DNA of 64,000 bases from Asterias amurensis. Taxonomy: Eukaryota; Echinodermata; Asteroidea; Forcipulatida; Asteriidae. The stretch covers positions 11,704,335 through 11,768,334 of the forward strand of contig NC_092669.1 in the NCBI RefSeq assembly GCF_032118995.1, written 5' to 3'. The position numbers and the translations under genes are program-made. Shown piece after piece: positions 380 through 61,381 of this stretch; position 1 is the first letter of the stretch, and each line of letters opens with the position of its first letter. Under the pieces are notes generated by a model. The model ran no database searches and was not told the origin of the DNA. It saw only the letters and a list, made by a program, of their open reading frames with translations.

Positions 380-560
380 TCTACCTTCCGCCCGCGTAGT
401 TGTTAAGAAGCAGAACAGTTCTTCTCAGAACTGAGAATTCTCCCAAATTCTGAAAATCTCCTCCGCGGTAGTAGAATATAAAGCAAGACAGCTCTCTAAA
501 GAACAAAGTCTACCTGGCAAGTAGATACAGGTACTACCGCAACAGGCTGGGACTACCTTT
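380..560 (-). repeat. Dispersed repeat family E, inverted copy
   Basis: The reverse complement matches 28515-28715 over most of its length, including the blocks CTGTCTTGCT, TCAGTTCTGA and AAGAACTGT. The 28.5-kb copy also carries a GTTTGCGGTAACACCATG end that recurs at 38.0 and 62.9 kb. It is a non-coding dispersed repeat of unknown class. Confidence 0.6.
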
Positions 561-659
561 GTTTGCCATGATCTACAAAACAAAACTCAAATTATTTGGT
601 TGTTTCTTACATTCACATCCTTTCCTGCTTTACATCTTAACAAGTGACTAGCCCCTTAA

Positions 660-1019
660 AGCCATTGGACACTTTCGCGACAGTATTGTCCAAGGCCCAC
701 ACTTCGTGTATCACAACTTCTATATAAAATAACAAACCTGTGAAAATTTAGGCTCAATCGGTCATCGGAGTCCGGAGAAAATAACGGGAAAACCCACCCT
801 TGTTTCCGCACGTTTCCTATGGTCATGACATGTGTTCAAAATAAATTTGTAATTCTCGCTATCGAGAATTGATATTGTTTTAATGTTTTCTCAAAAGTTA
901 AAGCATTTCATGGAATAATATTTCAAGAGAAGTCTTTCACCATTACCTTCTGTAAACCCTGTAAGTTATTTGTAAATCTGTGAACTTTTTTTTTTCTGTA
1001 CCGAAAGTGTATAATGGCT
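660..1019. mobile_element. Family C MITE, TTAA target site, complete copy
   Basis: Left end AGCCATTGGACAC, right end (inverted) GTATAATGGCT, with TTAA on both sides at 656-659 and 1020-1023. The interior is largely self-complementary, and the centre contains CTCGCTATCGAG. Other copies lie at 15313, 20037, 26221 and 39079. Short length, long terminal inverted repeats and a TTAA duplication fit a Kolobok- or piggyBac-type non-autonomous DNA transposon. The RRG-like start favours Kolobok. Confidence 0.85.
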
Positions 1020-1562
1020 TTAAATTGTACATGATTGGGGACATGATCAAACCAATTTTGTAGTTGCAACTATTTTCTAAAAGAAAACAACTTTTGTTGC
1101 CCAGAGTTTTCTCAAAAGAGAGTGTCATATTTGTATTTCGCTGCAGCCACTGTTCGTGTTGGGGAAACTGTAAGCGAGAAATGAGGCTGATGTTGTTGGG
1201 GTTTGGATGGGGGTTAGTGGTTGGGGCGGGGAGGGGGGTGAGCGCTCCGACATCCGTTGATCGAAATGTAAACTTTAGCACTGTTGTATCGGTACATTGT
1301 GACGGTCGAGTGAAAATAAGGTCCTACATTGTAAAACTATTTGTTTGGACAATAAACAATTACAGTAGAAGTTTTGCTCAGAAGCTTCAGTGTTGATTTA
1401 CTCTTAGCCTACCTTAGGCCTCTTTAGTTCTTGAATCTGCATCTCCTCGGGTGTGTAATTGTTGGGCATGGCAGAGTTTGCAAAGGGCACCAAGGCAATG
1501 AATATGGGCATCATGGATACATTTGCCTCTTTCTTCTGTGAAGTATTATGAATGCAGTGTTC

Positions 1563-2065
1563 TAACTGCTTGACTATTCAATATCATCCACTGCTGTTTT
1601 GGATGCATCAGAACAGTACACAGTCAACCCTCCTACTGTCTGACCATTCATTATCACCCACTTTTGTTTATAATGCATCTACACAGTCAACCCTCCTACT
1701 GTCTGACCATTCATTTTCATCCACTGTCATTTTGGATGCATCAGAACAGTACACAGTCAACTCTCCAACTGTCCAATAGTTCATTATCATTCACTGTTGT
1801 TGTGGATGAATCTGCACAGTACACAGTCAACCCTCCTACTGTCTGACCATTCATTATCACCCACTGTTGTTGTGGATGAATCTGCACAGTACACAGTCAA
1901 CCCTCCTACTGTCTGACCATTCATTATCATCCACTGTTGTTGTGGATGAATCTGCACAGTACACAGTCAACCATCCTACTGTCTGACCATTCATTATCAT
2001 CCACTGTTGTTGTGGATGAATCTGCACAGTACACAGTTAACCCTCCTACTGTCTAACCATTCAAC
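1563..2065. repeat. 70-bp minisatellite, about 7 copies
   Basis: The block GTCTGACCATTCATTATCA recurs at 70-bp spacing (for example 1841, 1911, 1981), separated by TGTTGTTGTGGATGAATCTG and CACAGTACACAGTCAACC. The last three or four units are nearly identical and the first ones are diverged. Short open frames across it are repeat artefacts. Single related blocks occur at about 17,110 and 24,165. Confidence 0.9.
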
Positions 2066-2574
2066 AACAAAATCACTCTGAGGCTTATTGTAAATTTCCA
2101 ATTGATTTTTAATTGCTCTAGAGCGCACCTGTGATGACCAATGTTAATAGCAATCTTAGTTGAACTTCACTTGATATACAAAGAACATCATGCACATGAG
2201 CTAATGCTTCAACTTTTTAATTTTAACAAAGTGTTAACATTTTAATTAATGTTCAAAGTTAATCACTGTTTTGTCTGATGACAATTTTGTACTGTGTGTA
2301 TATATTATTACATTGATGGAAGTGAATAAAAATGTTGAACAAATAATTACAAAATAATGATTTCCCAGTATGTTTGCTTTTTCTTTTTATGATTGTTTCT
2401 GAGCGGGTTGGAACTCAAGATGCTGGGTTCAACATTCCATCTTGTATTTTATGCTAGTTCGTCGGGAGGCTGTGTATTTGTTTATATTTCAACCTTTTTA
2501 CAAATAATACATATATACATGTAGTACTTTCCTTTTAAAACATTAAATTCTTCTTTTTCCCCGTTTCTTCTCAG

Positions 2575-2667
2575 GAAGTGCTACCCACACAACTTGGTAA
2601 ATTCGTAGAGAACTTTGCAAAACATTTAAAAGGCAATTTTTTCATTAAAGGCAGTGGACACTATTGA
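2575..2667 (+). pseudogene. Duplicated terminal exon start with MITE-supplied stop
   Basis: The intron end and first 25 bases of the exon at 120 are repeated here: pyrimidine tract, CAG at 2572-2574, then GAAGTGCTACCCACACAACT. The frame stays open (EVLPTQLGKFVENFAKHLKG and on) and ends at TGA 2665-2667, which lies inside the family A MITE that starts at 2649. It could be an alternative last exon or a decaying duplicate. Transcript data would be needed to decide. Confidence 0.5.
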
Positions 2668-3033
2668 TAATTGTCAAAGACTAGCCTTCACAGTTGGTGT
2701 ATCTCACTATATGCATAAAATAACAAACCTGTGAAAATTTGAGCTCAATTGGTCGTCGAAGTTGTGAGATAATAACAAAAGAAAAAAGCACCCTTGTCAC
2801 ATGAAGTTGTGTACTTTTAGATGGTTGATTTCGAGACCTCAAATTCTAAATCTGAGGTCTCAAAATCAAATTCGTGGAAAATAACTTCTTTCTCAACAAC
2901 TATGTCACTTCAGAGGGAGCTGTTTCTCACTATGTTTTATACTCAACTGTCAACCTTTCCCCATTACTTGTCACCAAGTAAAGGTGTATGCTAATAATTT
3001 TTGTTGAGTAATTACCAATAGTGTCCACTGCCT
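2649..3033. mobile_element. Family A MITE, TTAA target site, complete copy
   Basis: Ends are AGGCAGTGGACACTATTG and its inverted form CAATAGTGTCCACTGCCT. TTAA flanks it at 2645-2648 and 3034-3037. The internal palindrome contains GAGACCTCA...TGAGGTCTC. It lies between the duplicated exon and the FERRY3 stop, so it may be part of the FERRY3 3' UTR. Other copies are at 29433, 36434 and 43964. Confidence 0.85.
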
Positions 3034-3114
3034 TTAACTTCTGATAAGTGTTGGAGCTAGTTTGTGTGGAGTTGGCGTAGCTCACTGTGGACTTATAAAT
3101 GTACATTCATTCAT

Positions 3115-6100
3115 CTATTTATGTTGTGAGAGGTCCAGTGTTCGAGACAGTCTGAAGATGTGAGGCAACATTCCACTGAGCTGGGAGAACAAATCGTCCG
3201 ATATTCCCTGCAAGTAAAAAAAAAATAAAATCAGTTAGATTTCATATTTTCATGAAGGCCTTCATGAAAATAGTTGCTGATGAAACGCCATACAATTCAG
3301 ATATCTAGGGGAGAGTTAGTGTGTTGTGTATATTTAAAATGTGTTTTCAAATGTATTTTCAAAATATGGCAAAACCCCGGACAGAAATGTTTTTAACAAT
3401 TAGTCTGTTTATAAAAATGATTTAAACTTGTAGATTGTTTGTAGGTACAATGTACTCAGTGCCTTGACAAACTGAAATATTTAAGACAGGATTTTGAATT
3501 TTTTGAACTATGAGACCGATTATTGTAGCCACCTTACAAAGGTTTACAGTGAAGGGAAACAATATAAATGTAACAGACGAAAAAGTGAATTTGTTATTTT
3601 TACCTTCGGAACGACAAACTGAATTGTTCGACTCTCACTGCCTCCCCACTGTGCCATCTCCATCATGAACCCCTTCACACACTTCAAGACAAGCTCCGCC
3701 CTCTTTACACACCATGGGATTGTCATTTCCTGAATAAATTAATAAATTTACATAAGTCAATTGATTTGCATAACTTAGACTATTTCCTGAGACTTATTCC
3801 AGCGTATTCTGAGACTTATTCCACACATCTGCTGTGATTTAGCAACTTCCGCCCAACTTCCCCCAAGACACATCAATGAATATTCATGAATGTTAATCTT
3901 ATCCACTTGGCCATGACACTACAATGAATATTCATGATTGTAAATGTGGCTCACCTCATACATCTCATAGAGCAAGAATAGCGGCAAGGTGACGGAGAGA
4001 ACATCAAACCGAACACAGCTCTTGAGGATGTTCCTAAGGGCAAGGATGCATGGATGACGAGAGTTGATGTCTCCGTTACGAAGGTTGTCATCAGTGACGA
4101 GATGGAACAGAACGTGAACCTCCGCTAAGTTAGAATGCTTAGTGATGTAGAAATCCCCTGAAAAAGTAATTATTGATGTCCTTCGTTAAAGGGTTTGGGG
4201 ATTTTTGTATGACAAAAAAACATACTAAACGTCCAAAGGTTTACACCAAACACAAACGTCCACAGATTTACAGTAAACTTACCGGTTTAAAAACAATAAT
4301 TGTAGAAAGCTCCCCTGAAAATATTATTTGCTGAGGTGCTGTAGTTTTTTAAACATGAGTAAATTTTGATCAATATTTAATAGTTTTTAGTTTCACCCTT
4401 CACTATAAAATCCTGAAAAAAAACATTAATTCTGCGCTTTTAATGGTGTCCGCCATTTATCAAAATGTAGGCTAGTAATTGGCCTCAACTTTTCAACTCT
4501 TCAAAACTCGTTTGTACCTGCTTTGAGGTTCGATGTGATTTCTCCATCCTCGGAGGATTGTCTTGACTCGCTAGATGCTACCGATCGCCGGTCACCCCCA
4601 CCATTGCTGGAACCTAACCAAAAAGAGGAAACACAATTGTAAATTATAACTCTATGCCTAGCTTCCAGCTCTACGATACCCTACCAAGAGTATCTGAAAA
4701 GATCAGGGACAGGAGGATGAGACTGGATGGCTACTGTTTCCGCCAACCAGAGCTAGCTGTGAGCCCCCTAGTTCTTTGGGAACCCATCGATGGAAACAGG
4801 AGCAAAGGCAGGAGGAGACTTACATTCGCAGATAAGCTGAAGAAGGACGCAACTCAACAAGAAACAATTGAGCTTAGGACGTTGATGCTGGATCGAAATG
4901 CGTGGAAGACGACCATTAGAGTTTCCTGAGAAGGCGTCGGCTGAAGACAACCTCTCGCTAAACTCACTCATACATTAATGTTCCTCAGACAATGAGAAAA
5001 CCAAAAGAACAAAAGGAAAATATTCTGAGGAACACGTCAAGGGTTTTCAACTAATATTTACCATCTTGACTGAGTTTTTCGGCCTTCCTGGCCCGGCGTA
5101 GTGTATTAGCTTGCACAGCATGCTGCTGGATCACACGTAACTGTGTGTCCAAATCTGGAAAGTGGAAATCTGTAGACTGCTGACAGACAGCTGCAAAGTC
5201 TACAAATGAAAAATACAAATAATTCATTATTATTTTAAAGTTATAAAACTCCTAACCTATGAAGGTTTGTATAGTTGGTTCTGTAGGCCTACCCCTTAAC
5301 CACCTATCTCTTAGCAAGAAGCCAGGTACATCAATCTTATCAGAGTCTAAACATTTGGTTGTTCAGTTACCATAGTGTGGAGTATTTTTATTGATTTTTG
5401 TAGCTTCTATACACCAGAGGAAGTTTGTAAATTGTACATTTTAAAATTTGTCAGAATTTCTTTTATAAAAAAATAGGTCACTTTTTGGAGTCAGAGGAGC
5501 AGCGACCTTGCTTTGCTTCTGTTCACATTTATGCAAGCCAGAGTGAGGCTGGAAGGAAAAACAGTCTGGTACCCCTTTCTGGCTTGGGGGGTTATTTACC
5601 ACAATTGTCTTAGGGGAACATAGCCCAAAGAGTAAGCTCACCTCGTTTGATTCCTGTGTAGGAATTGATCCGGTCATCCACCATGAGTATAAGCCCGGAC
5701 AACGAACCAGAGAACAAGGACATTGCTGTCTGTAATCTCTGGGGTTGAGGTTGAGGAGTTCCCCTGTAAAGGTTAAAGGTGAATGAGCTGATGAAGGGGA
5801 AATACACCTGGGTAAAGAGGAGCAATTATGGTTAAGTGTTTTGCTCAAAAACACAAGTAATATTACCCCTCTGATGATTCAACTATCAGAACTTAAGTTT
5901 GAGGCAGTTGACCATTGATCCAGTCATGGCAAGTCACCGTCTTAAAATCTTGAGAAACACTCATTCACCCAAAAATAGCAGCACTCACCCATCTCTGTTG
6001 GGCTTGTGTTTACACAAATCCAAGACGTCTCTGGACATCAGACGTATGTTATGCATCGTCTTCATTTGGGCACCTGGACGTGAAAACAGGTTAAGGAAGT

Positions 6101-8960
6101 TGTTTAATATATTTTCAAGCAAATGGTTTTGTTAATCTTCACCAGATAAAAAGATATTCTTAACTTGAGTCCTTTTTGTTTTCAATTACCAAGATGAATT
6201 GTAAAGCTCTCCTCAAGTTTGGGTTCTTCAACGATAACTTCTCTCCTTGTTGGGGGCAGCAAATCGGACATGGCTCGGATACGCCGACTGACGGGTCCCT
6301 CTGTCCCATTCTCCATGTCATCTCGTATCTGCTGGATCCACGTCCTGAATTCTTCTCTCTGTGAGTCTTGTAGGTTCTTCAGCTCGCTGTGCCATTTCGC
6401 TTCTTCACGCTGGGAAAAATAAAATCAAATAATAAATAATTTTGTTTCATTCTTCTTAAAGGGTTTGGGTACTTTTTATACAACACAAAACACAAATGCC
6501 GCAGATTATTATTAAACTTACACGGTTTAAAGATAATGATGGTAGAAAACATAACTTGCTGAGGTGCTGTAGTCTTTGAGAGATGAGTAAAACAACTTCA
6601 TGAAAATAATTTGTCTCAGTGAGACCAAAATTATTTTAGTATGGAAGACATTGCTATGTGGTTTTCACTTTTTTTCTCAAAAACTTGACGACTAATGGGG
6701 CTAAAACTTCTATAGGTAGGGTACTTCAGTCAATGTAAGACCAGTGCAATGTGCACTGGATGTCTTGTCCACTACACCACCACAACAATACATACCTGTA
6801 TATTCTCAAAGTGTTGCGCAGCTAGCCTGTTAACTTGCTGGTCATTGTGAGTGTAGTCCAGGTTCTGCACTGCTTGTTGTATTTGCACTGCTTGCCTTAA
6901 AAAAAAATAATAATAATAATAACTGCATAGTTAATACTTTTTTTCAGACAGTGTAATTGTTAAAAAAGGGAGTGAAAACTGCCAATTTCACATCACTTTG
7001 TAAAACATTTTTCCATTTTCTTTGATTCTATTTGAGCAGCGTGTGGGGTTGAGTCCTGGCCCCGAAATTCATTGCTTCTCTTAACCGTGGTGTATAAGGA
7101 GCCTGAGACAGTCTTGTCGCTTAGTGCTAACTGAAGCAGCTAGGGGTTGTATGTGCCAATGTGTTGAGAAAGTTAAAGAAATTATCTAAAAGTATGCCTG
7201 ATAAACAGGGACTAGCGCCTAGATCTAGTTGCTAGGATAAGTGCATTTTATTATAAGAACCAATTAGTAGGTGGGCGTGGATAAACCCTCTTGTAAAGTA
7301 TAATGAAGACCGTACCTTTCTTGAAGTTTAGCTAAAGCTTGATCTCTCTGTATCAGAACATCCTCAACGGCCACAGCGTAAGTGTGTTCCAAACGAAACA
7401 AAATCTCCAATGCCGGTGAGTGTATAAGCTTGTGGTACAATTCCGCAAATCCCACTTCTGGTTTGGGCTTACTGTCTGGTGCATATGCCACACACTCCTG
7501 TTGTCCAAAAGAAATAGAGAGTCTTAAAGTTAATCTCAAAGTCATGAACAATTTATTTGAAAGGCCTTTCATAGTAGCAATTACGTTCTCTATAAAACAA
7601 AATTAAAAGGTTGTATGGCTTCTGACTGGCACCCTGAAGAAAATACTGACAAAATAGGGAGACTGTCCACATAGGGCTAGGTAGAAAGCTCAGTTGGTAG
7701 AGGGCTGGCACGTTCATCCGGAGGTCATTGTTTCAAATCCCAATCTTGTAAATTTGTCATTGTTCACCCCCTATTTACTTAAAAAATTACCCAGTAAATC
7801 CTTGTGAAAATGTAAAAAAACAACAATTATGTTTATTTTGATTGTCGGGATTCAGATGTGTTCTTTAATTCTTAGTTACAAGTTCCAAATACCTGTGTGT
7901 AAGCCTTTGCCCATTTGTCAGCAATATTTCCAATGTCGTCATCACCGGCTTTCTGTAACGATTCAATGGCCTCCTGGGCATTGTTATCATGAAAGGTCGT
8001 AGTTTCCTTGGCAACAAATTTGTCAAGCTTTAACGTTATGTCTGTAAAACAAAGATAACAAAAAGTGATAGAAAAACATTACAAATTGATACTATTTCAT
8101 AAATGTATGATGCTGGAATCTTAAGACTTAATCTGCGACCATCGGGAGGAGGGAGGGGGATGTTAAAGTTATGATTATTGCAATTATCACAATTAATTTT
8201 GTGGCAATAGACCTATGGTTTTGATTGTTTATACATACATTGTTTAACACTGAAGATGGAATAAAATTAGGTTCATGTTTGTGAACAGTTATTGAGTCAT
8301 TAATTAGACTCAGCATTTTAGTAACTGGAGCGCTGTACTCCTCTTTCCAACTCTTCATTAAAAACACAGGGCTAGCTCGAGCTTGGTGGTCGACATTGTT
8401 TAGGACATCTGCTCTGCAGCAATGCAAAGGTTGTGGGTTCGAAACCCACCCGAGTGATTTACCAGTAATTTTTTTCACAGAACCTGGGTAAGTACTGAGC
8501 ATATAGTGCTTAGTGTAATGGTAAACAAAAATCACAAATCCAGAGGTACAGCAGTAGTCAGGGCACTCCGTCCCATCCCATTCCCAGTCACATCAGGTCA
8601 GTTGTCACTCACTCAGTCAACTCAATTGTTGACTTTTTGTTGGGTCTAGTTTTTAAAGAAGCTAAATACATGCGTTTGAAGCTACCAACACTTTAAGTTT
8701 GCATCCATAATATTATCATGAATATCAATCATGTCTTTAGATTTTCAATCCGCAAGCAAAACCACATACACTGACAGGGCGTTTGTTTACATTATTATAC
8801 CTTCCTCAACAAAACACGGTAGATTGTGGGCGGTGACCAGCCTCCCGACAAACTCTCGAGTGCTGATTCCAAGAGGGATTGGGACTGGAACTCGGAGCTT
8901 AGAATATAATTCCTTCGTCTTGAACTGAAATTTGAACTCTTTATCTACCCCTGCCGACAT
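3115..8960 (-). CDS. FERRY3: FERRY3 / C12orf4, endosomal FERRY complex subunit
   Basis: Subunit 3 of the FERRY complex, a Rab5 effector that links mRNAs and ribosomes to early endosomes (family knowledge). Twelve coding exons with consistent phases: 8801-8960, 7893-8041, 7316-7497, 6796-6895, 6190-6409, 5989-6073, 5642-5763, 5062-5199, 4518-4613, 3955-4157, 3604-3729, 3115-3207. They total 1674 nt, 557 aa; the human protein is 552 aa. Conserved blocks matched from memory of the human protein: LPCFVEED near residue 47, [61 protein letters not shown] near 487, and a C-terminal [11 protein letters not shown]. The start codon is the first ATG in the most 5' exon and fits the human N-terminus. No breaks were seen. 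A LINE fragment (4650) and two SINEs (7672, 8385) lie in introns. Confidence 0.96.
4650..4935 (+). mobile_element. LINE 3' fragment: reverse transcriptase C-terminal tail
   Basis: An open frame on + contains [20 protein letters not shown], then [21 protein letters not shown] and [12 protein letters not shown]. This arrangement (RI/KIRxRRxRxxGHCxRxPE, LVLWEP, GRPxxTF) is the usual tail of non-LTR endonuclease-reverse transcriptase proteins in marine invertebrates. It is 5' truncated and lies antisense in FERRY3 intron 8. Confidence 0.8.
7672..7810 (+). mobile_element. tRNA-derived SINE, family T
   Basis: Contains an A-box-like stretch AAGCTCAGTTGGTAGAG and a B-box-like GTTTCAAATCC, followed by a non-tRNA tail with GTTCACCCC and AATTACC. 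The same layout recurs at 33836 and partly at 55365. It lies in FERRY3 intron 2. It is not a tRNA gene, because there is no acceptor stem. Confidence 0.75.
8385..8515 (+). mobile_element. tRNA-derived SINE, family S
   Basis: B-box GGGTTCGAAACCC preceded by CTGCTCTGCAGCAATGCAAA and followed by TTTTTTTCACAG and AAGTACTGAGCATATAGTG. It shares the body with 25312-25420 and, inverted, with 13560-13765. It lies in FERRY3 intron 1. Confidence 0.75.
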
Positions 8961-9414: not shown

Positions 9415-12400
9415 ATGTCAGACAGTCGCAAATCATCCAGGTAAGCCTTTTATTCTAAATTTAAAGTATAATTTTGTAATTCCTTGACTCTTATTCAAAA
9501 ACTATATTCACAACTTACAAGTTACACCTTTTGAGACTATGAATCATAGTCTCAAAAGGTGTAACTTGTAAGTTGTGTTGGCCTTGTCTCATTGTCTTGT
9601 CCGCTTCCTTTGTCCTTTGTCCTTTGTCCTTTGTCCTGCTTCACCTTACTCCTAAATGTTGTCATTCTGCCGATTATTATTGATTCATTGTGCACCAAAT
9701 ATATTTATTATCTCGTGTTACTGTGTTTAGTGTGTTACTTGGGTAATTTCAACTTATTGTGCTTTTTTTTGTAATGAAATTGCAGCATTGAAATAAATGT
9801 TACTGAATGAATGAATTCGTTGGCCTGAAGTTGAACTGAAGCTGACCGACTTTGGTAAAATAATTTCAATATTTTGATATTTAAAAAATTAATTTTCAGA
9901 TCAAGGAAGACGGTGTGCTATTCAAAATTTGGTGAAGATGACAGTGATGGTAAGGTTTCTTTTATTTCTCGGAGTTAGACCCCCTTTTTTGACCAAAAAA
10001 TGTGAACATTTTGTGATGATTGTTATTGTTTTGTAAATGTTTTGTAACTTTCCTCTCTGCAATTTTTATCTCTGTTGATTGACCCCACCCCAAAATGTGT
10101 CTGAGTATTGAAAAAGACATTTTTATTTTGTCAATACTGAGCAGTGTCTTGAAACAATTGGTGACAAAGTGAATAATTGAAATTTGAAGGGTGTTGTAGG
10201 TCTAATAATGATGATTTATTTGCTGTTGTTGTGATAATTCATATTTGTATTTGTTTGTTTTTGTATATTTCTTCCTTTTTAGGTTTTCGCGTGCAGCATT
10301 CTGTAAAAATGTTCAGTAATCGGTCAACTATAAATTGTTATAAATTTGATTTTGCTTGCATTGTTTTGCTTTAATTTATATCTCTCCCAGTCCCAACCCA
10401 ACCCACTCTTTCCTCCTGATTTGTTTTAAAGGAGTTTTGTTAATTGATTTTAGTTTAGGGTAGGCTTACTTTGTAGTGTGCATTTTTTTACTCCTATTTT
10501 CACGAAATGTATTAAACGTCTTTAAATTCACAGCAATTCTTTTTTGTTTCATTATTTGCTCATAAGTGTGTATTTATAAAATCTCTTCGTCTTTTCTTCT
10601 GAAATTTGAAAGAAATTGTTCAATTGTTTTGGTAGTAATGTGCATTGTCATGTCTTGTTTTTGGGGGCGATATTTAAGCCTAATTTTAACAGTTACTATA
10701 GGCCTACCCTAAATAGATACTTTAATTTTATTTTCCATATTTCTTAAATCAATTTTATTATCAACTGCAGTAGTTCAACTGTACTACATCCAGACAGGAA
10801 CAAGTTAAATCTATGATATTTTGTTTCCCTTCAAGATGACTTTGCTCGAGCGACACCTCCGCCGAAAAAATCTAAGGTGGAGAAGAAAGACAAATTATCC
10901 AAGACCAACAGGAGCAAAGAATCAAAAGAGAAGAACTCGGCAGTTACAAATGACGACAACAACAGGGCTGACAGATGTAGTAAGAGGACAGAGAGGTATG
11001 TGTGTCCCACCTCCCACCCCCCCCCCCCTCCCCACAAAGAAATTTTCAGGCATGCAAACTTTTACTCCTAGAACTATGAGGTTAGTTCCACGATCCTTCG
11101 TGGAGACGATAGAGGAATAAAACTCATAGTTCTAGGGGTAGCAACTTTTCAGCTTTACAGCTGAGTTTCTCTTAATTTCTTCAAAAAGGTTTGGTGAATT
11201 ATACTGTCTGTTGTTTTCTGCCAATTTGTTTTCTTTATAAACAAATTGTGTTCCAGGCAAGGAGGAGCAGATGATTGGGTCCCAGCTGCTTAAGCACAAA
11301 AAAAGCTAAGCAGTTTGAAATTTGGCTACCGCAATAAGGTTACCAGCCAAACTACCATGTCACATTTACAATTTGTGACTTGGTATTCTGCTAATTCCTG
11401 CTTAGCAGAAAATTGAAACACTATTTGCTGGTTAAGCAGCAGCTCTATGAAATTGAGCCCTTCTTTTCTACCAGGTCTTCCTCGTACACTACATACACAG
11501 ATTGTCAACTAATACCCCCTTGTATCCATTTCTCCTTCTGTGTTCTGGTTTTAGAATCTCCCCTGATGATAAAGCCTTTGATCGTGAGTTGCAACTTGCT
11601 CTGGAGCTATCAATGCACGACTCTGAAGAATTGCAACCGAATGAAGCGCCCTCAAACCATCCTACATGCGGCAAGACGAAGGACATTGAAGCGCAAATAC
11701 ACTTAACAGGTAATTCCCTTCTTAAAGGCACTGGACAATATTATTGGTGATAACTCAAAATAGTTTTAAAAAACTTATTTTGTAATGAGCAATGGAGAGC
11801 TGTTGATAGTATAAAGCAAAACGGCTCACTCTGAAGCATCATAGTTTTTGAGGAAGAGGTAATTTCTCACTCAAATAAAAGACTTTAGCTGAAGCCTTTT
11901 ATTTTGCATCTGAAAGCACACAAATTTGTGCAACAAGAGGTTTTTTTCTTGCAACTTTGATGACCAATTGAGTCCAAATGGGCACAGATTTGTTATTTTA
12001 TACATTTGTTGGGGTACACCAAGTGAGAATACTGGTCTCTGACAATTACCAAATGTGTCCAGTGCCTTTCAGAAAAACCAAAGGTATTACATTATCTCTA
12101 ATAATAATAATAGTAATAAATGAGTCAGTAAGAATACGAAGAGCGAGTTGAAACAATTTTTTAGAACAGCTTTGACCAAATCTTTAATTTTATGTTTTTC
12201 TGACAGCACCAAAAACAGAAAACTCATCAGCCAGTGATTCCACCAGTGAAGTCACAGACAACAAGGAAAACATAGTTGTCATGACAACCAAGCCACCACC
12301 CTCCTTCCAAGAACCCGATGATGAGATCGTCTTTGTGGAATCTCTGGATGAGGATGAGGTTGTTGGAGGAAGGCGGAAGAGGAAAGCGGCCAAGGAGGCT

Positions 12401-48830: not shown

Positions 48831-50454
48831 GAGTACAGAGTACCACAGGCCTCGGAAACGAGATCGCGTGTTTTTGAGAAGAGCAAAGCCTTGAGCGAGT
48901 ACAGTGTAACAGATGTCAAAGGACAGGCCATTCCTCCGCCCAAATAAAATTACATATGATGCAATTAAATGTCCGGTAAGAGGATGTAGCTTGCAGTCAC
49001 AACACGAAGTTTTGGTGGAAAATACGACCGCGTGGTCACCCGTCGTAAACGGTCCCCTTCGGCATACTTGTTTTCTTTCTGCACTGTGAAATTTCCGCTC
49101 GTGCTGGCTCGTATAGTGCTTTTCAATTGGGCAATTCTGTTGTTTAAAGGCCTGTACACTGTTGGTTATTACTCAAAATAGCTGTTAGCATAATAACTGA
49201 CTTGGTATAAACGAGCAATGGAGAGCTGTTGATAGTAAACACGGCCCCCTCTGAAGTAACGTAGTCTTTGAAAGGAGGTAATTTCTCACTTAAAGGAACA
49301 CGTTGCCTTCGGGCTGCGCTTTGTTGGGCGTTTTTGGGCTATGACAAGCGTTTGATGTAAAATGATTACGGTTGGAAAGATGTTAAAAAAGTAGAATATA
49401 ATGATCTACACAAACATGCCTTAGAATTGCTTCACTTTTGTTGACTTTCTCGAAACAAAACGCTCCGCCATTTATGGGGGTCAAGATTTTGACTCCCATA
49501 AATGGCCGCCAAATTCACTAGTCTTATTTCCAGTCGCAGCCGTTGAACTATACGACTGAGCATTTATTAAAACCCATTTGTATCTATCTCTTCCTCCATG
49601 GTTACTCCAACAACAACAAAACAGTTCATGAACAAAAATAAAAGGGCCTACGTTGAATTAACTTTTTATTAATCTATCTAAGCAGCAAGTTCAGCCCACG
49701 TCCCGGGGCCGAGCGGCTGCCGTCCAGCGGGCCATCATCCCCCGCGGCCAGACCTCCCCAGACGCAGTGAACTCCCCGTTCTTGCTCGTACGATGTAGGA
49801 TTTTAGCGGGGCCAGTCTAGTAATGCGAACACTTTGTACACGAAAGAATGTCTAGTACCCGTATACTAACTAGCGAGTGGAGTTGAAAATGGACGTGTCA
49901 TGACCTCCCACACCAAAACTCTGCTAGAGAATTCATCCTCTCGATAAAACATCTGCTCAGACATGTCAGAGGCGTTTACCGTGTTTACCGCGTAAGTATA
50001 GTATGCAATTGCGAGTCACATAGGCCTATACCCCACAGTTCGTTTTTAGATACAAAATTACAGGGACTTTACTTCTCTGTCCTTTCTCTATGCTGTTTGC
50101 ATGTACGTATGTAGAGTCACAGGGCAACAGGACAGTGGTGTATATTACTAATACTAGTCCATCGCCATAGGATAGATGATGTCACTTGTCTTATTTGCCA
50201 ACATGATCCTTTCTTCGGGGTATACATTCATTATTTTATAAAATAATGTTTATGTCTATTATGGGGATGTAATTCCTTGACCTTGGTCTTGGACAGTACT
50301 ATTTGAGGTAGCTCCTGTTTACATTGCTCAGAATCATTTGACAGCAAAATTTACGGTGCGATGCATCTGAACAGGGAGCACATACTGCAAATGGTAGTTG
50401 GCAAGGAAAGCTAAAATAAATTAATACTCTTGTCCACAAAAATGAAGCTTCCAT

Positions 50455-50616
50455 AGGTCCTTTTCAAAACCACGGCATCGGCTATGGATTCGGCTTCAAA
50501 CTCCGTCCCCTTGTCTGAATCCCTACGCAAAGCACGCTCAGTTTTGTTCAAACATCTGCGGGGCCAAGCTAGCCCTAGCTGAATCCAAAGCCAAAGCCGT
50601 GGTTTCGAAAAGGGCC
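50455..50616. mobile_element. Family F MITE
   Basis: GGTCCTTTTCAAAACCACGG against CCGTGGTTTCGAAAAGGGCC, with CGGCTATGGATTCGGCTTC against GAATCCAAAGCCAAAGCCG. It matches 38471-38634, including GGGGCCAAGCTAGCC near the middle. Confidence 0.8.
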
Positions 50617-50730
50617 ATAGTCTAGAAGAACTCTTTTCAAAAATTACAAAACAAAATCAGAAACGGGGAACAATTTTATTATTTTGTAACATTTTTGTAT
50701 TGATACTTGATTCCCAGGTCACAGTGAAAG

Positions 50731-50853
50731 TTGGGTGGCGATGTGATTATTGAAGCCGGTATGGACAAGAAAGAGTACACGTACATCAAAGAAGTTTTCC
50801 AAGCACGGTTAGATGACAACCAGCTTCTTCGCAGGACAGGAAAACTCTGCTAA
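50731..50853 (+). CDS. Orphan 41-codon open frame, exon-like
   Basis: LGGDVIIEAGMDKKEYTYIK then EVFQARLDDNQLLRRTGKLC and stop TAA at 50851-50853. Possible acceptors CCCAG (50717) and AAAG (50730) precede it. The composition is protein-like and unlike the surrounding sequence. The family is unknown. It may be a remnant of a gene carried by the 5.2-kb element. Confidence 0.3.
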   Translation: MGGDVIIEAGMDKKEYTYIKEVFQARLDDNQLLRRTGKLC

Positions 50854-50856
50854 TTA

Positions 50857-51223
50857 GGCCTGGGCGACCAGTGAAAATTACTAATCGACTAGTCGCACCT
50901 CCATCCAATAATTGCGACTACGACACTAGTCGCAACAAAATTTTAATTATCACGATGCACTGTGGCAATGTGTGCCGCAAGCACAATATAGTCTAATTCA
51001 AGCGGAAAAGATTGAAGATTTGTGTCACTGATGTCTGACTGTGTTCTGTAAGTAAATTATGTTGTCATGAATAGTCATGAGCGACTAAATTGGTTCACCA
51101 AACAGGTAGACGCAATTTTGTTTAAACTATTTTTGTAGCACGTTTAACCGAATAGTTGAAAACAATAGTCGCGACTCGACTCAGGATTCAATAGTTGGAG
51201 TGCGACACTAGTCGCCCAAGCTT
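50857..51223. mobile_element. Family H element
   Basis: GGCCTGGGCGACCAGTG at the left, CACTAGTCGCCCAAGC at the right. Internal repeated CGACTAGTCGC-type blocks. It shares TGCACTGTGGCAATGTGTGC and GTAAGTAAATTATGTTGTCA with 33500-33790. A poly-C tract and ACC repeats follow at 51268-51306. Confidence 0.7.
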
Positions 51224-51599
51224 ACCGCTAATGGTGCAAGGATAGCCTCTACCCGCAGCCGCCATCACCCCCCCCCCCCCCTCCCAATACCACCACCACC
51301 ACTACTACCAACAGAAGAACTTGTAGCAAAACACAAATCCAGATTTTCCACTTCTTAAATTTAATTTCCATGTAACTTTCCACAATTTGGCTACAAAATT
51401 GTCTGTACAGGTGTGCATAAGATATAAGGTCAGTGCATTATTAGCATTATTGGCAAGTTCTAGAGTTTGTATGTAATCAAAGAGAATCTTTGTCACAAAT
51501 TAATAGGAACTTTATAAAAAAATATGGACAATTTATTGAATGTTTTTACAATTCACAGCAGTACACGATGTATTTGCAAACATTAATTAAATTTGTCCT

Positions 51600-52085
51600 T
51601 TGCCAAAGAACACTATAGTCCCATGCAGTATCCTTGGTAATAGTTGGTGTATCTCCTCAATATTTTAGCATACAATAATAAACCTGTGACAATTTGGGCT
51701 AAATTTGGCAATATACATGTAAGCTGCAAGAAACAGTGAAAGAAAAACACCATTGCAGTATAGAAACAAGTCCTTTGACATGCCTCTCATCATGTAGACT
51801 TTATCAAGTGAGTTTTATGATCACAAATTAGTAATTACCAACATCTAAGGTATAAAGTCCCTTTAGAGAGACCAATGCCTTAGATCAAGTGATTTGGTTG
51901 TAAAATGCATATGGTTAGAAAGGATGTTTTAAAAGTAGAATAGAATGATCAACACAAGTATGACTTGAAATTCGGTGGTTTTCCTTTAAAACTTTTACTT
52001 ATTCGAACTAACATGGTCTGCTAGTCAACAATATGACTAGTTCTAAAACATCATTCTGACCATGCATTTCATAACAGGCATGTGG
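51600..52085. repeat. Remnants of A- and D-type MITEs
   Basis: 51640-51800 carries A-type blocks (GTTGGTGTATCTCCTCAATA, AATAAACCTGTGACAATTTG, GTGAAAGAAAAACACC). 51880-52085 is a D-like palindrome (TAAAATGCATATGGTTAGAA, AAAAGTAGAATAGAATGATC, GTGGTTTTCCTTTAAAAC and inverted CATTCTGACCATGCATTT). 52090-52600 shows nothing recognisable. Confidence 0.5.
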
Positions 52086-52599
52086 TTGAAATCAAAATAT
52101 ACTTGCAAGGGTTAAGGTTAAAAATTTGAAATGGCACTGTGTTTATCAAACTTGTTGCATCTATGATCCATGTCTCTTTATGAATACAGAATAAAGATAT
52201 TTCAGATAAATTTATTTGAATACAGATTCTTTATGTTTTTGTATTTGTTGTTCTAGTGTGTTTTTTGTTACAAAATATCGAAATCTCAAATAAATAATAC
52301 AATAAATATGATGATTGTATAAACAATTGGCCATGTACTTCAAATTAAACTTAATCATATTATGTCGTTGTGATGAAAACAAACTCTGCTCACATCACAT
52401 TCAATGATTTGTTGACATAAGTAATGTGCAAAAGAAAATAATAAGTTGAAATATTGACATTATGTGTTAATTTAGGAATAAGAATCTACTTGTTGAAAAC
52501 AGGAAATATTGCCATTTGTAAAACCTGTTTTGCATAAATCATGTGTACATGAAAGTTGAAACTATCTGGAAATATATCCCTGATTTTACAAACAGTAAC

Positions 52600-54155
52600 T
52601 AGGTAGTGTTACTCTATTTCCAGTACCATTCTGACACAACACATGTTGTCTGTGAAGGCTGGCTGGGTGGCAAAGTCGTTTGTTGTGTACATCATGCTCC
52701 CCTGGTGTACATGTCATTCCTGTGATGTCGTGCCAACTCTAATGGTGGTCCAGAACAAGGTGCCTCAAGATCTTTTCAAATATAAACACAAACATTTTTG
52801 AAACAATTAACAAAATAAAAATTGGTTATTTGTACATGTATATGGAATATAAAACCCATGCACTTGATGTTGATTCATTAAAGTGACATTTTTGCAAATA
52901 TTACCTACCTGCAGCCGATTTCACGAAACTTTACGCAACTGCGTGAGTCCACTTGCGCAATTTTAATGGCGCAAGTTGCTTCATAAACGTTGCACAAGTG
53001 GACTTACGCAGTTGCGTAAAGTTTTGTGAAATCGGCTGCTGGTCAAAGACATGATGTTATTCAAATTTGGGATGTGGCTGTTCAGTGTAAAGTTTTTTGG
53101 TAATGCAACGTTGGCGAAGGAGGCCGTTTACAAGTAACTACAATGAATGAAAGCTTAAATTTGTGTTTCCTTATAAAATGTGTGTTTACACATTTACTTT
53201 GTTTTTCCTTTTTTTTTTGGGGGGGGGGTGGACAGATCAAAATATCATATAACAAAACTGGACTGCTTTGACAGTACATGTGTATATTGTTATACATGCA
53301 CATGCCATTGACAGTATGAAATAATCAGTCTCTTACTGCCAAGTTTGAGAAGCATTCATCCGGGCTTTGTTTGCAGCGTGACCTCTCCTGTTGTGTTGGC
53401 ATCTCCCTACAGTTGGTACAAACACACCAGCTTGGTTGGGTTTGATGAGGTCTCCAAGATGTTTACGCCAAGTCCTGGCATCTGCTCACATAGTACCTTC
53501 AACAAGAAATTCATAACCATTGATATAACTTATTAGTTCTCGACAATTTTATTTTTTATTGTTTGAAAGGTCACACTTCTTTGAAAGAATTCGGGTTGAC
53601 TTGGGTACGAGTTGACTTGGGTACAATATTTTGGGTAAACTGTTAAAAATATACAAAAACATTTAATAAATCTGTACTATTTAGTATTTTTAAAATGTAT
53701 TTCTACAATTTTTACAAAAGTCCTCCCCTTCCCAGCCAGATAAACGACTCTTTTAATTGTAGCATCAAAGTAAATTAGGGTAAATTATGCCAAGTCATTA
53801 GGACGCTGGACACTCGATTCAAATCCCCACCCCCATCTATGCACCGAGTGAATAGATCTACAAAATTACATGTAAACTAGTCATAGTACATGTACATTTA
53901 TGTACTCTCACAACTCAGTGCTGCGGCTGTCATAGCTGTGAATTTACGTGTCATGTCCACAATAATAACTAACAATAACATTGCATTGGGTATAAACAAT
54001 CACGGTCCGTTCACTATCTCTCGTCGGCTAGTCCATGTCCCACTACATTATTCTTACCCTGATTGGCGAGGTGTCCGTTCCTTCTTTTTGGACGTGTCTT
54101 CAATCATCTCTTTGCGTAGAGCAATGAGCTGAATCTGTGTTTTTCGGCGATCCAT
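52600..54155 (-). pseudogene. Decayed gene with P2X7-type cysteine-rich domain
   Basis: Exon 1 54058-54155: ATG then MDRRKTQIQLIALRKEMIED and KKERTPRQS, with donor GG/GTAAGA. A second exon (about 53337-53447) reads SWCVCTNCREMPTQQERSRC then KQSPDECFSNLA before GTAAGA. This WCxCxxCxxMPTxxE pattern is the zinc-binding start of the P2X7 intracellular domain, found as many stand-alone proteins in marine invertebrates. A third block (52600-52790) continues the family pattern (LVLDHH, ELARHHRNDMYT, then QNGTGNRV) but in three different frames, so the gene is disrupted there by at least two frame changes. A 129-bp palindrome sits in the intron. It reads inward from the right end of the 5.2-kb element. 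Confidence 0.55.
52911..53039. repeat. Near-perfect palindromic MITE, ~60-bp arms
   Basis: GCAGCCGATTTCACGAAACT and ACGCAACTGCGTGAGTCCAC on the left; GTGGACTTACGCAGTTGCGT and AAATCGGCTGC on the right. The core TGCGCAATTTTAATGGCGCA makes a second hairpin. Confidence 0.85.
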
Positions 54156-55364
54156 TTTGACAGCAAAATGGTGTGTTTACATTTCACACAACGTCGTCTG
54201 GTAGAGAACGGTATGTTACCTCGTGTTCTTCTGGTAGGTTTACCAGGCTATTGGCTACGGCGCCAGCCTAACTGCTGTGCATCGCGCATAAACGGACGAT
54301 CGTTTTGACGGCTTGAAAAACGTATATATTTCGCGGGCCGTGTTTCGGGGTCAGAGGTCAGTGTTTGTTTTTTTTAATTGCCATTCACTAATTACAACAC
54401 ATTAAATGTGTTTTATTGCAAGAACAACTCTTAATAAGTATAAGGAACACCCTCAAACGTGAAATTTTGTGAAATCTGAAGGCAACGTGTTCCTTTAAAT
54501 AATAATATGCATCTGCAAGCATAAGTTTGCGCATTCGTTAATGGTGTTTTTTCTTTCATTATTCTCAACATTAATTACCAATTGAGCCCAAATTTTCACT
54601 GGTTTGGTACTTTATGCATATTGATTTGGGATACACCAAGTGGGAATACTGGTCTTTGACAGCTACCAAAATGTGTCCAGCTTCTTAAATCGTTTAAAAA
54701 ATTTAGTCCTTTATTAAAAGATATCAGGAAAATTGTTAAGGATTGCAAATATAAACTGCAGAAAAAACTGCCCCACCCCATTGACCATTGCCTCTTGGTG
54801 TTCCCAACCGGACATACCTAAAAGTAGGCTACCGGTACAGGACATGTCCGAAGTACTTTAGCGGTTTGACAACCGGACGGTATTGTCTCCATTTTATGGT
54901 TTTAAAGTCTGGACACACCGGATAATAGAAAGTTTGAAATCCTTGTGTTTATAGTTTGGACGGAAGGGGGGCGTTTCCTAATGGCCGAAGGTTAACCAAT
55001 GCACTTATGGGTTGTTAGGCCTGTGGCCGTTTGCGTTCGCTTGAAGATTGTAACTAATTAATATTTTGTATAGAGAGCCTTTTGTTTAATCTTTTAAGTA
55101 CACAATACGATATACACAACGATATTAAAATTTGCTTCTTATCCGTCATTTAGTGACGTCCAAGGCGCTTTAACTTCAGTTTTTCCTGCAAGGTATATGG
55201 GACTATCGTTTGCAGTATGAGACCGTATAGCACCTAACCTTAGCACCATGCAAAAGGTGCTGTGTGGCTAAATTAAATATGCTGCCAATCAAAACCAGGA
55301 ATACCAGCCGAACCTCTCTTTTTTTTTTTATAAGCGCACGGGGTTATTTCACGTCGTATTTAAT

Positions 55365-60999: not shown

Positions 61000-61381
61000 A
61001 GGAACACGTTGCCTTGGATCGGTGAGTTGGTCTTTGAAAAGCGTTTGTAACCGTTTGTTATAAAATCGATATGGTTAGAAAGATATTGTAAAAGTAGAAT
61101 ACAATGATCCACACAAACATACCTTGGAATTGCACGGTTTTCCTTTTACCTGGTCGACTAACACGGTCGGCTATTTATGGGATTCAACAATTTGACTCCC
61201 ATAAATGGCCGACCGTGTTAGTTCGCAATGTTAAAGGAAAACCACGCAATTTCGAGGCAAACTTGTGTGGATCGTTGTATTCTACTTTTAAAACATCTTT
61301 CCAACCATATGCATTTTATAACAAACGGTTACAAACGCTTTTTTATAGACCAAGTCGTCTGATCCAAGGCAACGTGTTCCT
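61000..61381. mobile_element. Family D MITE, complete palindrome
   Basis: TTAA 60996-60999 and 61382-61385. Ends AGGAACACGTTGCCTTGGAT and inverted ATCCAAGGCAACGTGTTCCT. Nearly the whole length is self-complementary around AACAATTTGACTCCCATAAA. The left half matches the left end of the 5.2-kb element at 49294. Confidence 0.88.

Follow-up and report, generated by a model that had tools for sequence, protein, structure and literature searches.

A TTAA-flanked element with a decayed P2X7-type gene in Asterias amurensis: a probable nonautonomous derivative of a Kol0-type Kolobok transposon

The Element and Its Insertion Site

The subject of this report is a TTAA-flanked element of 5.2 kb that carries the remains of a gene for a P2X7-type domain; it lies in a stretch of 64,000 nucleotides of the Asterias amurensis genome, called the window here (RefSeq assembly GCF_032118995.1, contig NC_092669.1, forward-strand positions 11,704,335 to 11,768,334; positions below count from the first letter of the window). 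The element interrupts a miniature inverted-repeat transposable element (MITE) of the family designated G, and shares its outermost sequence with the short MITEs of family D. Its extent, ends and target site are as follows.

49294-54494, plus strand: probable nonautonomous Kolobok-type element (D long form), 5,201 bp, recognised by its ends and by 14 further copies that match it in ends and interior
49290-49293, no strand: left copy of the TTAA target site, read from the sequence
54495-54498, no strand: right copy of the TTAA target site, read from the sequence
49294-49310, plus strand: left 17-bp terminal inverted repeat, starting 5'-AG (RR), from the 17-mer scan
54478-54494, minus strand: right 17-bp terminal inverted repeat, the element ending CT-3' (YY), from the 17-mer scan
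49144-49293, plus strand: left half of the interrupted family G MITE, outer end approximate, from the empty-site alignment
54499-54680, plus strand: right half of the interrupted family G MITE, outer end approximate, from the empty-site alignment

The 17-mer AGGAACACGTTGCCTTC is found in exact form and opposite orientation at the two ends, each time directly beside a TTAA, as a preliminary description of this locus had reported from the letters alone. With up to three mismatches allowed, the window holds four matches to this 17-mer, against 0.10 expected in shuffles, and none of 100 shuffles gave four; the remaining two matches are the ends of a family D MITE at 61000-61381. The termini AG...CT fit the pattern RR...YY.

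For an empty-site test, the flanks of the element were joined with one TTAA and aligned to eight non-self genome loci (10 loci were fetched from 40 matches listed, two of them being the window itself). Six of the eight span the junction; CTCACTTAAATAAT is kept across it in three of these (L060, L063, and L064), and the other three differ at the TTAA by at least one base. A paralogue within the window, at 11722-12062, also spans the junction, without the TTAA. Since the flanks rejoin across the junction, the preliminary description argued correctly that the locus records one insertion event into a family G MITE.

A Family of Related Copies Across the Genome

The genome searched comprises 491.5 Mb in 23 contigs, the window lying on contig C22, and contains the 17-mer at 73 + 61 places; 100 of these 134 places were listed, and end pairs were drawn from the matches listed. 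Among them are 14 plus/minus end pairs 4.4-5.7 kb apart, all of which were fetched and proved to have the same interior as the window element, with TTAA on both sides and 14 different flanks; full-length copies of this kind are what the preliminary description had proposed to look for. Over gap-free columns the 14 copies are 92-99.9% identical to the window element, locus L012 being the outlier at 92%, and because two of them, on C1 and C11, are ~99.9% identical to it by the same measure, the family has moved recently. Two more end pairs, 11.1 and 12.3 kb apart, are elements of the same 5.2-kb type with large extra sequence. One of them (L025/L026) is nearly complete; the other (L023/L024; C2:6129482-6140553, 11.1 kb) keeps both ends but is missing an interior stretch of ~2 kb that includes the P2X7-type gene. 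Several kb of other sequence stand in place of this absent interior. Together with a 12-kb relative on contig C8, TTAA flanks both sides in 18 of 18 elements (the window element, the 14 aligned copies, the two longer elements, and the relative).

These copies bear on the simplest alternative, that two separate family D MITE insertions happen to flank an unrelated host gene of P2X7 type. Family D ends are indeed very common; the 20-mer made of TTAA and the adjoining 16 bp has 8,919 + 8,908 exact matches in the genome. Yet the 14 other copies combine the same interior with a TTAA pair at different sites, and the interrupted family G MITE closes, so that such a coincidence is barely conceivable. 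Two D ends belonging to separate elements, the outcome that the preliminary description had named as fatal to its reading, are not what these 14 copies show, as they share both ends and interior.

The 17,827 exact 20-mers imply thousands of MITE copies; by a count made by eye, 70 of 100 places listed form 35 pairs ~300-400 bp apart. Family D MITEs resemble the 5.2-kb element in their outer 20 bp, including the TTAA, which are identical at both ends, and over its left 220 bp, where the MITE at 61000-61381 is 75% identical; they differ in being ~390 bp long, near-palindromic, and present in thousands of copies. At the right end only 20 bp are in common, which does not fit a MITE made by joining the two ends of the element. 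The element had been put forward as the candidate parent of these MITEs; the common ends and the left 220 bp speak for a relationship, but the right end does not allow a simple deletion product, and the likeliest reading is that the two are cousins which depend on one kind of transposase.

The Decayed KolX Gene

Kojima and Bao (2022; PMC9587614), in the part of that paper used here, describe Kolobok transposons of the Kol0 group that encode a transposase together with a second protein, KolX, which matches the C-terminal, or ballast, domain of the receptor P2X7. The gene remains in the window element are best read as KolX, and two further features accompany them.

53328-53505, minus strand: remnant of KolX (P2X7-type) exon A, a cysteine-rich stretch with a mid-exon frameshift; tblastn against the 12-kb relative E=8.7e-19; its 39-aa piece alone matches P2RX7_C at E=0.0018, below the Pfam cut-off
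52589-52789, minus strand: remnant of KolX exon B, with an internal stop and small deletions; tblastn E=5.8e-13
52907-53043, no strand: fold-back of 137 bp with 68-nt arms, 87% complementary, between the two KolX exon remnants, from the fold-back scan
51894-52076, no strand: degraded family D MITE fragment nested in the element, from alignment

Whole-frame Pfam scans over the six frames of the window element yielded no P2X7 domain at E<=1 and no transposase; the only match, to a plant cysteine-rich domain (E=0.019), was taken as chance. The KolX remnants that these scans had missed were located by piecewise tblastn comparison with the 12-kb relative, and in copy L013 exon A passes the P2RX7_C threshold (27.1 bits vs. 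a cut-off of 23.5). All 15 aligned copies have remnants of both exons in the same position. L025 contains both as well, and L023/L024 contains neither; by sequence the remnants are thus present in the window element and in 15 of 16 other elements of the 5.2-kb type. The lesions are largely shared as well. Exon A has a common frameshifted layout in 12 of 15 copies (it is open throughout in L013 and differs in L012 and L015). In exon B, a stop at one shared codon interrupts 12 of 15 copies; L010 and L019 are stopped further on instead, and L016 has no scorable frame. The cysteine motifs WCVC..C and CC are kept in these remnants.

KolX is therefore a pseudogene in the window element, and the shared lesions indicate that it was inactivated before most family members spread; a functional KolX in the 5.2-kb family was rejected on account of the shared frameshifts and stops. 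The P2X7-type gene reported in the preliminary description is real and stands at the same place in every aligned copy, but it has decayed, and most likely it is a passenger of the element rather than its engine.

Each of the 14 other copies has an inverted repeat that corresponds to the fold-back between the exon remnants, and in L012 and L022 this repeat is shorter.

The 12-kb Relative and the Origin of the Element

The relative on contig C8 (C8:19884266-19896495, 12.2 kb) has the same 17-bp ends as the window element, and its end regions are ~87% (left) and ~80% (right) similar. On its plus strand, open frames read GDARNDSPG, CTDSHTT, DVWH, and LESFH, in this order. A Kolobok transposase is recognised by a DDE triad with C/DxxH between the second D and the E; the C8 frames fit the D, D, DxxH, and E of this scheme, with putative motif roles recognised by eye. 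Convergent to them, the minus strand carries two exons with Pfam matches to P2RX7_C (E=2e-7 and 3.9e-18), one of which also matches solved P2X7 at E=3.5e-14. Except for repeated pieces, the matches between the relative and the window element are collinear, and the transposase-like pieces fall into one gap.

49823-50313, no strand: stretch holding the inferred deletion boundary; the 12-kb relative has ~6.5 kb there (its 542-6997), from alignment

The window element is thus very probably a nonautonomous, internally deleted derivative of a Kol0-type Kolobok DNA transposon, moved in trans. Its ancestor would have carried two convergent genes between the 17-bp inverted repeats, one for a DDE transposase and one for KolX, a P2X7 C-terminal ballast-domain protein. 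The transposase part would then have been lost, and decay of the KolX remnant would have preceded most of the spread of the family; with a transposase provided in trans, the short form would have moved by cut-and-paste to TTAA sites, one such hop ending in the family G MITE of the window.

Several observations weigh against this history. The C8 transposase is assigned from motifs recognised by eye, with no database match behind it; Pfam searches with the transposase-like pieces and the frames scanned gave sub-threshold, unrelated matches and no transposase, and no THAP domain was found in the C8 pieces scanned, though the Xenopus Koloboks have one (PMC6004289). Pieces matching the relative cover only 2,032 of the 5,209 bp of the window element, for which reason the deletion history is inferred; the unmatched remainder is either too diverged to compare or unrelated. 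Among the copies seen, none is an intact autonomous partner for the 96-99.9% identical group, the C8 relative being only ~80-87% similar at its ends. Finally, one element of the 5.2-kb type (L023/L024) has no KolX match.

A transposase of the Kolobok or piggyBac type, which the preliminary description had proposed to seek in full-length copies, is absent from the window element; the C8 relative supplies transposase-like pieces, but no piggyBac domain in the frames scanned. The alternative of a piggyBac-type element carrying a KolX-like gene would share the TTAA target sites, and a few piggyBac families with such a gene have been reported (Kojima and Bao, 2022; PMC9587614). The termini AG...CT, however, follow the Kolobok pattern; Pfam detected no piggyBac transposase in the six frames of the window element or in the C8 frames scanned; and most of the conserved cysteines are missing from the piggyBac proteins in print (PMC9587614), whereas the copies here keep WCVC..C and CC. 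A piggyBac origin is accordingly very unlikely.

Three side observations concern the relative and its kin. A family D MITE, 85% identical to that of the window, lies in the C8 relative between two transposase-like pieces (its 5093-5478; L027:5389-5774), perhaps in an intron. Pieces related to the C8 transposase-like frames occur at C4:6427765-6433841 (L068-L071) and in L067, beside putative fragments of a non-LTR (long terminal repeat) reverse transcriptase; one piece is only 41% identical and may represent a second transposase type. A divergent D-type element at C10:10229878 and L030/L051 has P2X7-type exons with stops, and no exact opposite end among the matches listed.

P2X7-Type Domains Elsewhere in the Genome

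A six-frame search of the genome with P2RX7_C found the domain at 27 places or more, and the 27 were compared. Fourteen belong to a second TTAA family, seven are D-type (two in the C8 element, two in the C10 element, and one each in L050, which lies inside copy L013, L054, and L055), three belong to a third repeat (L031, L032, and L033, 96-99% identical, with P2X7-type exons), two are paired (L034 and L036, with a common 569-bp stretch at 92.6%), and one (L053) is without a partner; among the loci compared, 26 of 27 places thus have a related copy. Two families with TTAA ends in the copies checked account for 21 of the 27, a count that includes L030/L051, L054, and L055, where the full end pair is unchecked; five more places lie in repeated sequence whose transposon status is not shown. 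The opposite strand of L031-L033 has a frame that, by eye, resembles what is presumed to be the C-terminal part of the transposase in the second family.

The second family has 14 loci (L037-L049 and L052) that are 95-99% identical, 12 of them matching over ~3.1 kb and two (L038 and L048) in two pieces. Its left end, TTAA|AGTGCGTGGAAAATGAG, has 13 exact genome matches, all beside family loci and none at L048; the right end was read in one copy, L072:2969-8697 on C21 (~5.7 kb), as a TTAA-flanked inverted end with four mismatches, 5.7 kb away. P2X7-type exons occupy one strand. The other strand has a weak THAP match (E=0.00078, 20.6 bits vs. a cut-off of 23.9); a Protein Data Bank (PDB) search with the THAP-like frame found nothing. 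A stretch on this strand resembles, by eye, a transposase C-terminus, and the intervening space is too short to hold a DDE core. Of 16 matches to a 481-bp probe spanning that junction, 14 are contiguous, one per locus at all 14 loci, so that the second family, too, seems to have lost its transposase core.

The KolX exons of this family show no sign of constraint, by variant counts or by exon diversity. Exon 2 is open at six of the 14 loci, stopped at one codon at seven, and frameshifted at one; exon 3 has neither stops nor indels at 13, and exon 1 keeps the reference frame without indels at two. Across the 14 loci there are 17 nonsynonymous and 8 synonymous variants, against 17.5 and 5.2 expected; without L038 and L048 the counts are 14 and 4, against 10.7 and 3.2. 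Nor is exon diversity below that of nearby noncoding DNA. The control for the variant counts was the nearer noncoding sequence, an earlier control having been misaligned in L038 and L048.

In this genome, derivatives that kept KolX sequence without a transposase, or without its core, seem to have had at least two origins. If KolX itself aided transposition in cis, or if such derivatives scattered ballast-domain exons into new genes, this would supply the link that is missing between Kol0 transposons and genes like P2X7; the lack of constraint in the second family lowers the odds of this proposal, which is quite unlikely.

It is also very unlikely that a transposon recently captured and spread a host gene of P2X7 type. 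The window element, which has the P2X7-type gene and no transposase, would suit such an event, but the diverged 12-kb relative has the gene in the corresponding position, and a distinct TTAA family whose ends are different carries it too, beside frames with a weak THAP match; the association of KolX with Kol0 is, moreover, published for diverse animals (PMC9587614). Judged from its sequence, the P2X7-domain gene is best read as KolX, an accessory gene of Kol0 Koloboks, and not as a capture.

The preliminary description had proposed that a transposon lineage mobilising or capturing such genes could explain why these domains are so numerous in marine invertebrates. With 21 of 27 places in families with TTAA ends, a KolX-bearing transposon lineage goes far to explain their abundance in this genome, although the capture part of the proposal gives way to KolX. 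The idea of a transposon lineage is right and already published: KolX has been named as the likely origin of the P2X7 C-terminal domain (Kojima and Bao, 2022; PMC9587614). In literature searches on P2X7 with transposon, Kolobok, KolX, or echinoderm transposable elements, no other paper on this link appeared among the top-ranked titles and abstract starts. The finding that most P2X7-type domain copies detected lie in TTAA elements adds an in-genome picture for a marine invertebrate, and counts of "P2X7-domain proteins" in such genomes need to be checked for transposon origin.

Comparison With Known Systems

Koloboks duplicate a TTAA target and, unlike piggyBac, have RR...YY termini (PMC9587614). 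The window element shares both traits with the Kol0 group (type Kolobok-1_XT), and its 12-kb relative has a transposase-like gene together with KolX; it differs in that the window copy lacks a transposase and its KolX is dead, that THAP was not seen in the pieces scanned of the 12-kb relative, and that the transposase grouping is presumed. KolobokP elements, described from Patiria miniata (bat star) among others (PMC9587614), belong to the same superfamily and likewise have short terminal inverted repeats and short target-site duplications; unlike them, the window element has no long terminal direct repeats (~450 or 660 bp in KolobokP) in the alignment to its copies, and the Pfam scans revealed no His-Me nuclease domain. 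The P2X7 C-terminal zinc domain, or ballast, has been described across animals by Rump et al. (2020; PMC7016195), in a paper whose main text contains the string "transpos" 0 times. The KolX exons are homologous to this domain in sequence, whereas in that account the domain forms either the tail of a receptor or a protein of its own; the present result is consistent with the published view of KolX as the source of the ballast domain (PMC9587614).

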